The position numbers and the translations under genes were made by a program. A stretch of 24,445 nt of DNA, taken from positions 1 through 24,445 of the IMG/VR virus record IMGVR_UViG_3300021378_000158; one strand, written 5' to 3'. Below, piece after piece: positions 17,559 through 22,970 of the stretch; the stretch's first letter is position 1; each line of letters opens with the position of its first letter. Under the pieces are notes generated by a model that was not told where the DNA came from, searched no databases, and saw nothing but the letters and a program-made list of their open reading frames with translations. The stretch comes from a virus.

Positions 17559-17776
17559 TGAAATTCCTCGTCAATTTCTGTGGCACCTCGAAGAAGTGAT
17601 CCGCAAGATGCGCAGACCATTTCCGTGAAGTAGCCTGCGATGGTTTTGTCCTCGTCGAACCAGATAAGTGCGTGGAAAACTTGGTTGCCGCATACGCAGA
17701 CGGTGGTGGGACCCATGAATAAAAGGTCAGTACCGTCGGGCTCTATGTAGAAGAGTTGGTACACGGGTTGGCTCAT
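17555..17776 (-). CDS. small putative zinc-binding protein, 73 aa
   Basis: A 73-residue protein with C27-x-C29 and C55-x2-C58, which could make a zinc knuckle, within a mostly beta-strand sequence (YQLFYIEPDG, LIWFDEDKTIAGYF) and an acidic tail. I do not recognise it. It overlaps the primase gene upstream (ATGA) and the SNF2 gene downstream (ATGA), so it is translated as a linker between two replication enzymes. Small zinc proteins in such positions may serve as adaptors; this one has no other sign of function. Confidence 0.75.
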   Translation of the reverse strand: MSQPVYQLFYIEPDGTDLLFMGPTTVCVCGNQVFHALIWFDEDKTIAGYFTEMVCASCGSLLRGATEIDEEFQ

Positions 17777-18711
17777 GCAACTCCACCAAGGGCTGCTTTT
17801 CCGAAGGCGCGGGATTTTGCTGTCGCGAGACCGTTGTGTAGTTGATCCAAAGTCATGTCTCCGGGGTCTTTCGCATCGACGTCGCTGTAGTTAAAGAAGC
17901 GGACACTTCGTAGAACTCCTTGGGTGTCCTTGAGGAGTTCGATGCTGGACTTTCTACCGGCGTCATCTTTGAATGGGTTGTCGAGGGCGAAAACCACATC
18001 GTCGGCTGCGCTCATGAGGAGTAGTTGTAGTTTGGACACGATGGCTCCGTAGGTGGCGACCGCGCCTGTGATGCCGTCAGATTGGAGGCGCACTGCATCA
18101 AGTGGGGACTCCACGACAACCATTCGCCCTCCGGTAAACGCTTGGTATCCAAAGAGTGTTCCACTCTTTTTTACCCCGAGGGGGTAGTTGCGGAATACGC
18201 GCTCTACTTCGGATTTTTCTTGCCAGCCAAGGAGTGCGTTGTCGACGGGGTTCCTGATGGGCAGTATCCACGACTCGGATACAAAGTTCCATCTGACTCC
18301 GTAGAGGTCGCACGCTTCGGGGGAGAGGTGGCGTCGTCGTAGCGCCCACTTTGGTGGTGCGGAGAACCTGTAGATCTGGGACTCGGAGATGTGCTGGCGG
18401 TGGCTCACGATGGGTTGTGGGCCGGGGATGCGGGAGATGCTGTCCACCAAGTCGGGCTTGACGGTGAGTGTCTTGGCTTGGTCGAAGGTGACGCCCTTGA
18501 GGTCTGAGATCAACGTGATTATTGATCCTTTGTAACCGCAAGAGAAGCACAGGAACAGACCTGTGTTTATGTTGATCGACCATGACGGGTGGGAGTCGTA
18601 CTTTCCGGTCCGCTGGTAGTGCATAGGACATTCCGCAACAAACTCGTCACCCCGGGCGTAGCCGGAGATGCCTAGCCCAGACAGTGTGGACGAGACGTCG
18701 ATGGAGGTCAC
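17773..18711 (-). CDS. dnaG: DnaG-type DNA primase
   Basis: A 312-residue primase with two parts. The N-terminal CHC2-type zinc domain has C28-P-M-H31 and C55-x2-C58. The Toprim domain has VVVESPLDAVRL near 198, with the metal-binding Glu, and FALDNPFKDDAGRK near 245 supplying the Asp cluster. This makes RNA primers for the polymerase. It is shorter than bacterial DnaG and shows no C-terminal helicase-interaction domain. In the second Toprim motif a three-residue insertion (Pro-Phe-Lys) separates the Asp residues compared with the usual DNDxAG. GTG at 18711 overlaps the upstream stop as GTGA and has no clear ribosome binding site, so it relies on coupling. Confidence 0.92.
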   Translation of the reverse strand: MTSIDVSSTLSGLGISGYARGDEFVAECPMHYQRTGKYDSHPSWSININTGLFLCFSCGYKGSIITLISDLKGVTFDQAKTLTVKPDLVDSISRIPGPQPIVSHRQHISESQIYRFSAPPKWALRRRHLSPEACDLYGVRWNFVSESWILPIRNPVDNALLGWQEKSEVERVFRNYPLGVKKSGTLFGYQAFTGGRMVVVESPLDAVRLQSDGITGAVATYGAIVSKLQLLLMSAADDVVFALDNPFKDDAGRKSSIELLKDTQGVLRSVRFFNYSDVDAKDPGDMTLDQLHNGLATAKSRAFGKAALGGVA

Positions 18712-18956
18712 CTGTCGTTACCCCGAAGCCGGTACAGGTCAGTCTCTGTCGTGAGAAGAAGAATTGCTGGTTGGAGTGCCTCATCAAAGTCGTCGTCACG
18801 GGACTGCAAGTGTGAGGTCACCGCATCGACCACGACGTCGGCGATCTGGAGGTAGTAGCGCTTATCGTCCATAATGGCGTGGTTCCACGGAATGGCCTGT
18901 TCATCGGATGTGTATATAAGTTCAGCGATTTCTTCGATTAGTGCGCTCACGGGCAT
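18708..18956 (-). CDS. hypothetical phage protein, 82 aa
   Basis: An 82-residue acidic, helical protein of unknown function. Helices cover about 3-15, 34-50 (YLQIADVVVDAVTSHLQ) and 58-70. The ATG at 18956 follows immediately after GAAGGG; GTG at 18950, six bases after that GGG, may be the better start and would remove two residues. It is headed by a promoter candidate at 18967-18995 that overlaps the end of dnaB, so it and the primase may have their own transcript. No cysteines or motifs. Confidence 0.7.
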   Translation of the reverse strand: MPVSALIEEIAELIYTSDEQAIPWNHAIMDDKRYYLQIADVVVDAVTSHLQSRDDDFDEALQPAILLLTTETDLYRLRGNDR

Positions 18957-18966
18957 CCCTTCGGTA

Positions 18967-18995
18967 AATGTATTTCAAACTAGTAGCGCATGCTA
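18967..18995 (-). promoter_or_regulatory. putative promoter before the primase operon
   Basis: Minus strand: -35 TAGCAT (18990-18995), 17-bp spacer, -10 TACATT (18967-18972). The -35 includes the stop codon of dnaB. Spacer and hexamers resemble the candidates at 9770 and 15897. The gap is only 36 bp. Confidence 0.45.
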
Positions 18996-20276
18996 CACCT
19001 GTGGGACGCTTGGACCAAAGCGGCTCGCCGTAACGCACCCCGGGCATTTGCTCGAAGCGTCCTCGTCATGGAAGCACCCTGTATCCCAGCGCCATACCAA
19101 CACGGTGGAGTCAGGTCCGCAGTTACGGGAGGCGACAATGCGTAGTTCGCGGATCTCGTCATCTTCAGGCACTTCCTGCAGTCCAAGGATCACATCAGAG
19201 TCTTGGAAAAAACTGGATGAGTAACCGATCGAATCGGCAGAGACTTTCCCGCCCTTCATCTTCCACAGAAGAGTTTGCGTGGATATGACGACCGGAATGT
19301 TGATCCGTTGTGCGAGCCGCTTGAGCGAGCGAGTGATGTTGGTCAGTGCCTGCGGAGTATTGGATTCACCGCTCTGTTCATCCTGCATCAAGTACACCCC
19401 GTCGATGAACGCCACGTCCGGCTTGGTCTGATCAATCTTTGCCGCCAGAGCGCTCACAGTGATCCCATGCATCGCATCGCTGAGTGTGAACTGGTTCTCC
19501 ATCGAATCCATATCGGTGAGCATCGACCGGTACCGATCGAACTCGGGGGAAAGAAGTGAGCCCCTGCGCATCCTGTCGTGGGAGACCTTAGACCGCATTG
19601 AGTCATGGCGGACCTGCTGCTCGGTGTTGGACATCTCAAAAGACTGAAACAAAACATTGTGACCTGCTGCATGGATATTGATGGCGGTTTGCAGCAGAAT
19701 CTGCGACTTTCCTGTCTTAGGGGGAGCGATGACGGTGACCAGTTGGCCACCCTGCAGACCCGCTGTCGCCTCATCGATCTTCTCATAACCTGTAGGTAAT
19801 CCAAGAAGACTTCCCGAAGAAGACGCAAGGTCCTCGTATGTCAGCAGCCGAGTAAGGGGATCAAGTTCCAGATGCATATCGGTGACACCGGGAACACCCT
19901 CGCGATGTATATCGGTAACACCCTGCTCAATAAGAGAAAGCGCGGCCTCGTGATCGTTTGTGCTCGAAAGGACCTCGGCTGCACCTTGGATCGTGTCCTC
20001 AACCTTGACGTATCTTCTATACGCAATGAACTGATCGAGTAAGTAATCAAGTGAGTCTTCTACCTTAAGAATCGCAAAGTTAGGAAACTCCGCCCGCACG
20101 GTAGTAGCGGTGGCTACCTCCCCGTACTTACCCCAATGATCGACAAGCCAGCGAAAGACTTCCCGAACCTCAGGATTCACAAACCAATCAGGCTGTACAC
20201 CAATAGACAACAAAGGAGTGACGTGGCGCTCCCGAATCACTCGAGAGATTAAGCGAACCTCGTTATCGGCCGCCAT
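18993..20276 (-). CDS. dnaB: DnaB-like replicative helicase
   Basis: A 427-residue hexameric helicase. Residues 1-110 match the N-terminal helical domain, then the RecA-like core starts LPTGYEKIDEATAGLQGGQLVTV with Walker A APPKTGKS (184-191), the FQSFEMSN motif (210-217), Walker B VAFIDGVYLM (D292), and STQTLLWK. The arginine-finger segment lies near RIVASRN. The C-terminal 30 residues contain three cysteines (C401, C411, C414), which is unusual and may hold a zinc ion. It unwinds the fork with the primase and polymerase. The ATG at 20276 overlaps the upstream stop as TGATG. The loader-like gene lies two genes upstream. Confidence 0.93.
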   Translation of the reverse strand: MAADNEVRLISRVIRERHVTPLLSIGVQPDWFVNPEVREVFRWLVDHWGKYGEVATATTVRAEFPNFAILKVEDSLDYLLDQFIAYRRYVKVEDTIQGAAEVLSSTNDHEAALSLIEQGVTDIHREGVPGVTDMHLELDPLTRLLTYEDLASSSGSLLGLPTGYEKIDEATAGLQGGQLVTVIAPPKTGKSQILLQTAINIHAAGHNVLFQSFEMSNTEQQVRHDSMRSKVSHDRMRRGSLLSPEFDRYRSMLTDMDSMENQFTLSDAMHGITVSALAAKIDQTKPDVAFIDGVYLMQDEQSGESNTPQALTNITRSLKRLAQRINIPVVISTQTLLWKMKGGKVSADSIGYSSSFFQDSDVILGLQEVPEDDEIRELRIVASRNCGPDSTVLVWRWDTGCFHDEDASSKCPGCVTASRFGPSVPQV

Positions 20277-20695
20277 CAGAGTGACCGATCCAAATGACCC
20301 AAACCAATACCACGACCGCCATACCGCGACTGGTTCTCCGGCGTATCAACCACACCGATCACCTCAGGACGATACGGAAGATCACTCAGCAGAGACACAA
20401 TGTCGGGGTAAGTCGTCGATACATTCACCGGATTCGTCCCCATCGCATCAAGTTGACCCAGCCGTTTATCGGCCTCGTCCTGATCCACCCCAAAATTAAC
20501 CAACTCAATCCTGATCGCGGAACGCTCAGTGTATCGCCAAACGCGGTTCAGTGCTACGCGGTCAAACCTGCGAACGTTATGTGATCCCACAGCCACCCCT
20601 AATATCTTCCGAGGCTCATCAACAGCCACGGTAATCGATTCATACGTCACAAGAATCCTTGGCGGAATCTCGTTTGAAATGTCACCCCTAATCAA
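20276..20695 (-). CDS. hypothetical phage protein, 139 aa
   Basis: A protein of up to 139 residues of a family seen in actinophage replication blocks but without a function that I can cite. It has alternating strands and helices: [22 protein letters not shown], an Arg-rich helix with [14 protein letters not shown], then a helix, and at the C-terminus [24 protein letters not shown]. Such an alternation suits a HAD-like or other Rossmann-type fold, but catalytic Asp motifs are not obvious. The frame begins with TTG at 20695, just after the upstream stop; GTG at 20650 with AAGGA five bases upstream is an equally good start and would give 124 residues. Confidence 0.7.
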
Positions 20696-20986
20696 CTAAA
20701 GAACCTCAATCCTCCCGTACTTCACAACGAAGTCCCTAAATTTCTTACCCGTAGTCATCACACTCGTCAAATCATCCGCCTGAGAGTTCTCATGAACCAT
20801 CAACGGGTAGTGACCGTTATTACTCTCCAACCGGGCCACCACAAACTTTGTATGCCTGCAGACAGACCGCCCCTTAAACGTAGGGCAGTTACACCGAGCC
20901 GTCGCATCATCAAGGTTCATCTCTACCTCAAAAATGGCAGGCTGCCTCGGGGAAAGAAACAGTTGCACAGTTCGCCAATCATTCAC
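20696..20986 (-). CDS. SWIM-type zinc-finger protein, 96 aa
   Basis: A 96-residue protein containing C32-x-C34-x8-C43-x-H45 (RCNCPTFKGRSVCRHTKF), which fits the SWIM pattern CxCx(n)CxH known for binding DNA or proteins. A beta-rich N-terminus (VQLFLSP, AIFEVEM) and a helix after the finger complete it. The nominal ATG at 21001 has no site upstream; GTG at 20986 has AGGAGG six bases ahead and lies just after the loader's stop, so it is the better start. It may tether DNA to the helicase-loading machinery, judging only by position between loader and helicase genes. Confidence 0.82.
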   Translation of the reverse strand: MNDWRTVQLFLSPRQPAIFEVEMNLDDATARCNCPTFKGRSVCRHTKFVVARLESNNGHYPLMVHENSQADDLTSVMTTGKKFRDFVVKYGRIEVL

Positions 20987-20987
20987 G

Positions 20988-21572
20988 TCAGTCCTCCTCA
21001 TGGGTTACCTCCATGATGACGGCTATAAAAAAAATGTCACTTGATAAGTTACCCAAAAAAGAATCTTTAGGACGCGACTTAGACGTGACAATGGTGGGAA
21101 GCCCCTGATCAAACCTGCGACCAATCAACGCATCAAGAGTTGAGTCCACCCAACCCGATTCCGTCCGGTGCTCGTCGCCGTATCCCGACAGGATCAACAA
21201 GTCGTCGTCCATCCGGGATCGGAATTCCCGTTCGCCCTCTGGCCGCTCAGACGCCAAGAAGTCGCTGCTGCGAAGGTAAAGCAACGATCCTATAGATTCC
21301 CGGATCAACAAGTCCTGAGCCACAGCCGTTGCCACGGCAACACCGTTACGGCCAACGAGCCACAGCCCTTTCCCACAGAATTCAAAGTTTCCCTGCGCCC
21401 GAACCACGTCCCCAGTTGTCACACGCTCTGACCACTTCTCCACCAAGCCGTGGGGGCGGGCACCTTCGAGTAGAGGTGCCACATGCGGGGAATCTGGCAG
21501 TAATCCGAGGTAGCGGGGGCCTATCTTGGATAGCCGTAAGCGCGAGGTTGTTAGGCCCCTGTACTCCCTCAC
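20988..21572 (-). CDS. degenerate DnaC/IstB-like helicase loader
   Basis: A 194-residue protein with the layout of an AAA+ helicase loader. GKGLWLVGRNGVAVATAVAQ (68-86) occupies the Walker A place, DDLLILSGYGDEHRTESGW (123-141) the Walker B place, and IGRRFDQGLPTIVTSKSRP (150-168) the sensor-1 and Arg region. The N-terminal 60 residues include RYLGLLPDSP, typical of actinophage loaders. However the P-loop Lys/Thr and the Walker B Asp pair are absent (V80, A81, S129, G130). It would bind DnaB next to the initiator. GTG at 21572 overlaps the initiator stop as GTGA, with GGAGG a few bases upstream; a TTG at 21608 is less likely. Confidence 0.8.
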   Translation of the reverse strand: MREYRGLTTSRLRLSKIGPRYLGLLPDSPHVAPLLEGARPHGLVEKWSERVTTGDVVRAQGNFEFCGKGLWLVGRNGVAVATAVAQDLLIRESIGSLLYLRSSDFLASERPEGEREFRSRMDDDLLILSGYGDEHRTESGWVDSTLDALIGRRFDQGLPTIVTSKSRPKDSFLGNLSSDIFFIAVIMEVTHEED

Positions 21573-22441
21573 AGGGCCTCCATCTGGGCGTCCAGACTGG
21601 TGACCCAATCGTCGGAAACCTGCTCGCGGGTGATCTCGCGGTAGTTCTGCTGCAAGAAATGCAGGAATCGTTTGTAGGCTGGCGGGGTCTCGGTCAGCGA
21701 GGTGACCGTCTCGATATCTTCAAAAAATCGATCCACGGCGGTCGCCATGTCTGTGACCGAGAGGCCGTGCTCTTTGGACCATTTCTGGAGGACCACGGTC
21801 ATGGTCGAGCCGTCGGTGCCACCGCCCAAAATGTCTGGCCGGGAGGTGACCATCCGGTGGCGGAACTCTTTGACCACATGGGCGACCGACCACTGGTCGC
21901 GGGGAGTTAGGCGGTGGTACTTAAGGCTTTCTCGTCGCTGGGCACGGGTTGGGCGTTCACGGTGTGAACGGTTTTCAGGCCGCCCCACGCCTGCAAGATG
22001 GTCGCCGTCGTCGGTTTCGTAGTAAATTGGCACTATTCGTGTTATCCCTTTCTCGGGGGTACCCCGGGAGATAAGAGAACCTTTAGGTTCTCTTGTCGAC
22101 CTATGATCACTAGTCGTCCTATCGGCCTTTTCTACGTACCCTGTTTGTCTCACTGGTGGGATTTCTTTTCCCATATGTGGGATTTCTTGTCTCACCTGTG
22201 GGATTCCTTGGTGTGCGGCTGGCAAGGCGTAAACGCCACTTCCACACCGAATGAGGATGCCTTTTTCGACAATTCCTTGGATAGACCTGTGTGCGGTGGA
22301 CCTGCTAACGACCATCAGTGCCGCTACATCTTCGATCCTGACCCTGATCACTCCGTCGTTTTCGTAGGTGAGCAGGACGCATGCCGCCATGAACTCTTGG
22401 GGTGTAAGCCCTTTGTTGAGTAGGTCGTTTACAGATGTCAT
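21569..22441 (-). CDS. winged-helix replication initiator (lambda O / DnaD-like role)
   Basis: A 290-residue protein. Residues 12-75 form a winged helix (LTPQEFMAACVLLTY, RIEDVAALMVVSRSTAHRSIQGIVEKGILI, then a wing). Residues 76-170 are a polar, Pro/Arg-rich linker that includes a heptad repeat GIPQVRQ-EIPHMGK-EIPPVRQ (79-99). A helical C-terminal domain (about 175-290, with WSVAHVVKEF and YKRFLHFLQQNYREI) could bind the loader or helicase. The combination of N-terminal DNA-binding domain, linker and C-terminal partner domain immediately before a loader gene is that of phage initiators. The coding sequence contains an iteron-like array and palindromes. ATG at 22441 has only a weak ribosome binding site. 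Confidence 0.8.
   Translation of the reverse strand: MTSVNDLLNKGLTPQEFMAACVLLTYENDGVIRVRIEDVAALMVVSRSTAHRSIQGIVEKGILIRCGSGVYALPAAHQGIPQVRQEIPHMGKEIPPVRQTGYVEKADRTTSDHRSTREPKGSLISRGTPEKGITRIVPIYYETDDGDHLAGVGRPENRSHRERPTRAQRRESLKYHRLTPRDQWSVAHVVKEFRHRMVTSRPDILGGGTDGSTMTVVLQKWSKEHGLSVTDMATAVDRFFEDIETVTSLTETPPAYKRFLHFLQQNYREITREQVSDDWVTSLDAQMEAL
22051..22071. repeat. GC-rich imperfect palindrome inside the initiator gene
   Basis: A perfect 10-bp palindrome GGGGTACCCC (22056-22065) is extended by TCTC on the left and GGAGA on the right with a small mismatch. It lies next to the perfect palindrome at 22073-22094, so the two make a nearly continuous 44-bp symmetric stretch. Confidence 0.45.
22073..22094. 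repeat. perfect palindrome inside the initiator gene
   Basis: AAGAGAACCT (22073-22082) and AGGTTCTCTT (22085-22094) are perfect inverted copies separated by TT. The site codes for part of the initiator linker (Arg-Glu-Pro-Lys-Gly-Ser-Leu). A perfect 10+10 symmetry inside a coding region is unlikely by chance. Confidence 0.7.
22147..22209. repeat. three 21-bp iteron-like repeats (candidate replication origin)
   Basis: Units at 22147-22167, 22168-22188 and 22189-22209 share the core TGGGATTTCTT (TTCC variant in the third). The first and third also share GTCTCAC at the left, and the middle unit contains TCCCA-TATG-TGGGA, itself symmetric. The 21-bp period is two helical turns. The repeats lie in the initiator's linker coding region and encode three seven-residue repeats. 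Confidence 0.6.
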
Positions 22442-22481: not shown

Positions 22482-22970
22482 CTACACCTTATTGGAGGTA
22501 TTGCGGAAGCGGCGCGACCGAAACATTTCCTGCATCTCTGATCTGACCGTTTTAAGTACCTCGGCGGTGACCCGGGCAATGACCTCGTCGATGTAGGGAA
22601 CGGCGTCCACCACGAGTTCTTGGTACTCGTCTGCCATGTCCAAACTGGTAACTCCTTTGGACGCAAGAATTTGCAAGTACGTGTACTGCTTGGGCGTGTC
22701 TGTCCAACCCATCAGTACGAGGTCGCCCAGTTGAGCAAGGCTGACACAGTAGGCGTCCCTATCGACGACTGATATGAGGTCGGCAGCATTCTCAAGCACG
22801 TCCTCGGACAGTTCCGTGTCGGTGACAATAGTGACTGGTATTCCTAACGAAAAGGCCCAACTGGTGATCACATCAGATGCGGGAAGTGAGACATACAATT
22901 CAGCGACTGCATCCGAAAGATCAGGTAGTACTTCGGGTGCCGCGTCACTGGGAATGACAATAACTTTCAT
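22482..22970 (-). CDS. hypothetical protein with Rossmann-like N-terminus, 162 aa
   Basis: A 162-residue acidic protein that I do not recognise. MKVIVIPS at the N-terminus, DAVAELYVS, a helix SWAFSLGIPVTIVTD, and LGDLVLMGWTDTPKQYTYLQ look like alternating strands and helices of a nucleotide-binding Rossmann-type fold. No family-defining Gly-rich loop is clear. The C-terminal 45 residues form an amphipathic helix ending in a basic tail (RSRRFRNTSNKV). Its start overlaps the stop of the upstream membrane-protein gene by four bases (ATGA), so the two are probably coexpressed and may function together. It lies 40 bp before the initiator gene. Confidence 0.72.
   Translation of the reverse strand: MKVIVIPSDAAPEVLPDLSDAVAELYVSLPASDVITSWAFSLGIPVTIVTDTELSEDVLENAADLISVVDRDAYCVSLAQLGDLVLMGWTDTPKQYTYLQILASKGVTSLDMADEYQELVVDAVPYIDEVIARVTAEVLKTVRSEMQEMFRSRRFRNTSNKV

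Follow-up and report, generated by a model that had tools for sequence, protein, structure and literature searches.

Can a helicase loader of the AAA+ type do its work without a nucleotide site of its own? This question is raised by a 24,445-base virus record (IMG/VR record IMGVR_UViG_3300021378_000158, analysed in full and called the window here), in which an intact open reading frame (ORF) on the minus strand, at 20988-21572, encodes a homologue of DnaC/IstB-type helicase loaders whose ATP site has been lost. The purpose of the ATPase of DnaC-type loaders is unsettled: in the account of PMC8213410, single-site DnaC mutants without ATPase load DnaB in vitro from about half to wild-type level. 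The window protein is best read as an AAA+ homologue of the DnaC/IstB lineage that lacks a nucleotide site and would act independently of ATP; it is probably, although by no means certainly, a static loader or adaptor between the initiator, single-stranded DNA (ssDNA) and the phage DnaB-like helicase.

The loss extends to every part of the site. A prediction made earlier from this DNA alone (the original prediction) had read GRNGVAVAT in place of Walker A and LILSGYG in place of Walker B, and both were recovered, at residues 74-82 and 126-132. Neither GxxxxGK[ST] nor the Walker B acidic pair is present, and beyond these losses the sensor-1 Asn and the sensor-2 Arg are also gone. The arginine pair near residue 152 and the PTIVTS segment, which had been described as retained, were found at RRFD (152-155) and at residues 159-164. 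A hidden intact P-loop elsewhere in the loader was rejected, as a search of the whole 194-residue protein for GK[ST] found none. The features of the gene are as follows.

20988-21572, minus strand: DnaC/IstB-type loader homologue without an ATP site, 194 amino acids, GTG start (ORF call, homology, fold)
21577-21581, minus strand: probable ribosome binding site of the loader, GGAGG, 4 nucleotides upstream of the GTG (sequence)
21327-21353, minus strand: former Walker A, GRNGVAVAT, residues 74-82, with a three-residue turn (74-76) predicted between strand 69-73 and helix 77-90 (sequence, model, alignment)
21240-21251, minus strand: SERP, residues 108-111, with R110 at the DnaC Lys143 position and Gly now at the Phe146 position (profile alignment to DnaC)
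21177-21197, minus strand: former Walker B, LILSGYG, residues 126-132, which is LxLDDLG in canonical sisters (sequence, alignment)
21150-21161, minus strand: ESGW, residues 138-141, with Ser and Trp retained at the DnaC Ser177/Tyr179 ssDNA-contact positions (profile alignment to DnaC)
21108-21119, minus strand: RRFD, residues 152-155, with the family-signature Arg that is present in all (sequence, alignment)
21078-21080, minus strand: former sensor-1 position, K165, which is N in 82/82 canonical sisters (alignment; position counted from sequence)
20997-20999, minus strand: former sensor-2 position, E192, which is R in 82/82 canonical sisters (alignment, sequence)

To place this loss among relatives, loci were fetched through homologues of the helicase encoded at 18993-20276, in three scans of 80 loci each, many of them on the same contigs. 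Apart from the window loader, the scans gave 109 distinct loader ORFs with a length of 190 amino acids or more. Walker A as GxxxxGK[ST] and Walker B as [DE]D are both present in 105 of them and both absent from four. These four degenerate lineages, one sequence each, are L001/L002 (95% identical to the window loader), L012/L013 (52%), L014/L016/L017 (about 35%), and L018/L019 (about 25%). Loader ORFs cut by contig ends (five in one scan, two in another) all have a canonical Walker B. A direct scan with an alignment of the degenerate loaders returned nine loci, every one on contigs of the four lineages, and bacterial and archaeal genomes scanned with the helicase alignment yielded no relative.

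The canonical sisters (e.g. L041 and L087; PHROG 50 / PF01695), from related uncultured phages, occupy the same gene slot and are homologous to the window loader across the whole domain, with longer inserts preceding Walker B and following sensor 1. Unlike the window loader, they keep every ATP-site residue: the Walker A Lys and Thr, both Walker B Asp, the sensor-1 Asn and the sensor-2 Arg are invariant in 82/82 distinct sequences. The window, L001 and L012 loaders have other residues at every one of these positions, and L014 and L018 differ at all but one, the second Walker B Asp; the substitutes vary from lineage to lineage. The P-loop Lys and the Asp pair, which the original prediction proposed to follow in homologues, are thus lost throughout the closest of them, apart from that second Asp. 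No invariant Arg stands at the likely DnaC arginine-finger position in canonical sisters such as L041 and L087 either, a position where the alignment is uncertain.

In a quick tree of the helicases (91 rows), the degenerate rows form one side of a branch with a Shimodaira-Hasegawa-like approximate likelihood ratio test (SH-aLRT) value of 100. A tree with two distant outgroups and 20 other rows gave the degenerate clade support of 94.8/88, with a weak root position, and the branching of L014 and L018 was weakly supported (40.9/64). The simplest history is that the ATP site was lost once and eroded further afterwards. Judged from the sequences, this erosion was likely stepwise, since L014 and L018 still have the second of the two Walker B Asp residues.

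The scaffold around the lost site is predicted to be intact. An AlphaFold2 model of the window loader, built from a 33-sequence alignment, had a mean predicted local distance difference test (pLDDT) score of 84.6 and a predicted template modelling (pTM) score of 0.85. It places a strand at 69-73 and a helix from residue 77. Its best match in the PDB by VIA-align was Aquifex DnaC (3ecc; Z 15.2, root-mean-square deviation 3.0 over 159 residues), followed by E. coli DnaC, IstB and DnaI, with DnaA close after; the top Foldseek match was E. coli DnaC (6qel). The suggestion that canonical relatives in the alignment had forced an AAA+ model was rejected: a second model from the five degenerate sequences only showed the same elements at lower confidence (pLDDT 70.4, pTM 0.76), with 3ecc again first (Z 15.0). 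The AAA+ fold on which the original prediction depended was therefore obtained in both models, and in both the P-loop has shrunk to a three-residue turn. Chains of DnaA lie within about 1-2 Z of DnaC, and the fold alone cannot separate the two.

PHROG 26922, "DnaC-like helicase loader", matches the window loader weakly (expect value (E) 4.7e-5), and a Pfam search gave no match at E <= 1, the DciA domain PF05258 included. The syntenic L012 loader was matched at E 1.3e-62 (phmmer), and a profile including the sisters, although composed mostly of canonical ones, matched DnaC 3ecc at E 1.8e-12. Among annotated phage proteins, the closest come from Streptomyces phages, the DnaC-like loaders BRock gp113 (34% identity over 63% of the protein, E 5e-9) and GiJojo gp101 (32.5%, E 2e-7), with Gordonia phage Pupper at 27% (E 0.3); the three align over 54-63%. 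Unlike the window loader, these phage proteins retain the Walker A Lys and Thr and both Walker B Asp. By these sequence measures, the resemblance of the window protein to loaders is greater than chance. The loader ancestry originally proposed was thus borne out by homology, gene order and predicted fold, and loading may still be its function, even though it is not a standard DnaC/IstB member.

The original prediction had described the gene as intact, equipped with a good ribosome binding site, coupled to the initiator gene and not simply decaying. GGAGG lies 4 nucleotides upstream of the GTG, and this start codon shares bases with the TGA of the upstream initiator gene in the sequence GTGA. 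Besides the window, nine further contigs from the four lineages carry the ORF intact. The ratio of nonsynonymous to synonymous rates (dN/dS), calculated by a Nei-Gojobori script between the window and L002, was 0.039 for the loader (13.5 nonsynonymous and 72.5 synonymous differences), compared with 0.042 for the helicase, 0.05 for the primase and 0.248 for the initiator. This strongly purifying selection indicates that the loader is not decaying. The codons of its last eight residues share sequence with the probable ribosome binding site and start codon of the next gene, and this overlap accounts for part of the conservation there. At 60-65% helicase identity, mean loader identity was 28.9% among degenerate pairs (six) and 58.0% among canonical pairs (1038). 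Low short-range dN/dS together with faster long-range divergence suggests that constraint is strong at short range, but that the set of constrained residues has changed.

The residues aligned with the ssDNA contacts of DnaC are mostly alike in kind, the Phe excepted. In DnaC, Lys143, Phe146, Ser177 and Tyr179 hold ssDNA, and their mutation blocks loading, as described in PMC8213410. Profile alignment showed K in 82/82, F in 70/82, S in 80/82 and Y in 81/82 canonical sisters at these positions. The window loader has R, G, S and W, three of the four being alike in kind; across the degenerate clade, L018 has S for the R and L014 has T for the S, F is absent, and W is present throughout.

The gene also keeps its place among replication genes. 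The order initiator, loader, SWIM protein, 139-residue protein, helicase and primase was found in nearly all loci reaching far enough upstream, canonical and degenerate. The neighbours in the window are as follows.

21569-22441, minus strand: winged-helix (MarR-like) probable initiator, 290 amino acids from its ATG, its stop overlapping the loader start (domain search, synteny)
20696-21001, minus strand: SWIM zinc-finger-like protein, overlapping the 3' end of the loader (domain search, synteny)
20276-20695, minus strand: conserved 139-residue protein of unknown function between the SWIM gene and the helicase (synteny)
18993-20276, minus strand: DnaB-like replicative helicase with its own P-loop, APPKTGKS (Pfam/PHROG, sequence)
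18708-18956, minus strand: 82-residue protein between the helicase and the primase (synteny)
17773-18711, minus strand: DnaG-type primase (Pfam/PHROG)

A scan with the initiator matched only the two nearest contigs; weak homologues nonetheless lie upstream of the loader in most loci. Other loaders were sought in virus records of up to 76 and 84 kb, which may be incomplete. A single loader-type match per record was found in 12/12 records, two of which were canonical controls, and no IstB-family match above the cut-off was found in the ten degenerate-clade records; G008 and G009 gave sub-threshold IstB matches of at most 12.8 bits outside the loader gene. PHROG 50 matched once per record in six records, at the loader itself, and a search of six virus records for DciA gave no match.

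Together these results favour a loader or adaptor that would dispense with ATP. The loader would be made together with the initiator. With its AAA+ scaffold and some of the ssDNA-contact surface still in place, it would assist in depositing the phage DnaB-like helicase on the strand that the initiator has opened, leaving the energy step to the ATPase of the helicase itself. Contact with the helicase and the initiator is suggested by gene order alone; binding of ssDNA, loading, and release without ATP would follow in the same scheme. Work on E. coli (PMC8213410) offers a precedent: ATPase-dead DnaC mutants in Walker A and sensor 2 were reported to load DnaB about as well as the wild type in vitro, which indicates that loading can proceed without the loader ATPase. 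The same source describes the helicase-binding domain of DnaC alone as loading to about half, a sensor-1 mutant as slightly better than that, and DnaB's own ATPase as an aid to loading, while DnaC ATPase mutants stimulate unwinding less. With about even confidence, the whole phage clade may be said to run AAA+-type loading without a loader ATPase, the loader serving as a fixed wedge or adaptor while ring opening, closure and release would be driven by the helicase ATPase and DNA binding.

Several observations weigh against an adaptor of this kind. The window loader combines multiple losses at once. None of the four lineages has retained the equivalent of Phe146, on which ssDNA binding by DnaC depends, and L018 has also lost the basic residue at the Lys143 position. 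The protein aligns from about DnaC residue 47 and has no DnaC-type N-terminal helicase-binding domain; the canonical sisters are likewise short at the N-terminus, with no room for such a domain. For the same degree of helicase divergence, degenerate loaders have moved apart about twice as far as canonical loaders, a pattern that a changed role would also explain, and all the records are metagenomic and possibly fragments.

A changed role is the strongest competing explanation, although it is rather unlikely. Here the AAA+ scaffold would no longer load; it would have been repurposed to give structure to the initiation complex or to bind DNA within it, and the initiator, the SWIM protein or a host loader (e.g. 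DciA) would deliver the helicase. This view is consistent with the disappearance of all ATP-site residues and of a Phe146 equivalent, with the faster divergence, and with an extra 82-residue gene beside the helicase in this clade only. Nevertheless, the exact gene slot is retained, purifying selection is strong, the family-signature Arg and the Ser and aromatic ssDNA contacts persist, and a search for DciA, confined to six virus records, gave no match.

Dead AAA+ subunits occur in heteromeric rings such as clamp loaders or the origin recognition complex (ORC). By this comparison the window protein might sit, itself inactive, in a mixed ring whose active AAA+ partner comes from the host, but with one loader-type match per record in all 12 virus records such an arrangement is very improbable. 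Nor is there much to recommend a nucleotide still bound in a non-standard pocket: the AAA+ fold that could house it is retained, but the P-loop is a three-residue turn in both models, and Lys, Thr, Asp, Asn and Arg are all lost, with replacements differing between lineages. A decaying pseudogene, suggested by the lost catalytic residues, was rejected as scarcely credible, given an ORF intact in the window and nine further contigs, a dN/dS of 0.039, and 72.5 synonymous as opposed to 13.5 nonsynonymous differences.

The ATP-independent loader or adaptor favoured here would stand between known systems. With DnaC and DnaI (E. coli DnaC 6qel, Aquifex DnaC 3ecc, DnaI 2w58) the window protein has in common the AAA+ fold, the Arg...PT signature before sensor 1, the Ser and aromatic ssDNA contacts, and a gene near that of a DnaB-like helicase, whereas it lacks their Walker A, Walker B, sensor-1 and sensor-2 residues and their N-terminal helicase-binding domain. 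DciA is likewise described as an ATP-independent helicase loader (PMC8213410), a property shared with the window protein only as proposed here, but has an unrelated KH-like fold (PMC9865707). A literature search of titles and the starts of abstracts, in which few subscription journals were covered, found no description of a natural DnaC-family loader without Walker motifs. The lineage would bridge ATP-dependent (DnaC) and ATP-independent (DciA) loading. It lacks the entire ATP site, its gene is under strong selection near the helicase, and a large canonical sister group occupies the same slot, which makes the ATPase question directly testable; if the proposal is true, a clade with ATPase-free loading would offer a natural experiment on the purpose of the ATPase in DnaC-type loaders.

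Some further features of these loci deserve mention. The Streptomyces phage loaders L004 (BRock), L005, L006 and L009 read G(K/R)NGTRKT, in which Arg replaces the last P-loop Gly and Lys, Thr and both Walker B Asp are present. Upstream of the initiator, 22482-22970 encodes a 162-residue protein for which, at the sensitivity used, no relatives were found outside the degenerate-loader clade. Relatives of the 82-residue gene are also confined to this clade; the helicase and primase are adjacent or overlapping in canonical relatives. The 139-residue protein at 20276-20695, which had no Pfam or PHROG match, directly precedes the helicase in nearly all relatives. The SWIM protein at 20696-21001 has the same place, between the loader and the helicase, in almost every relative, canonical or degenerate, and may be an unrecognised replication factor.
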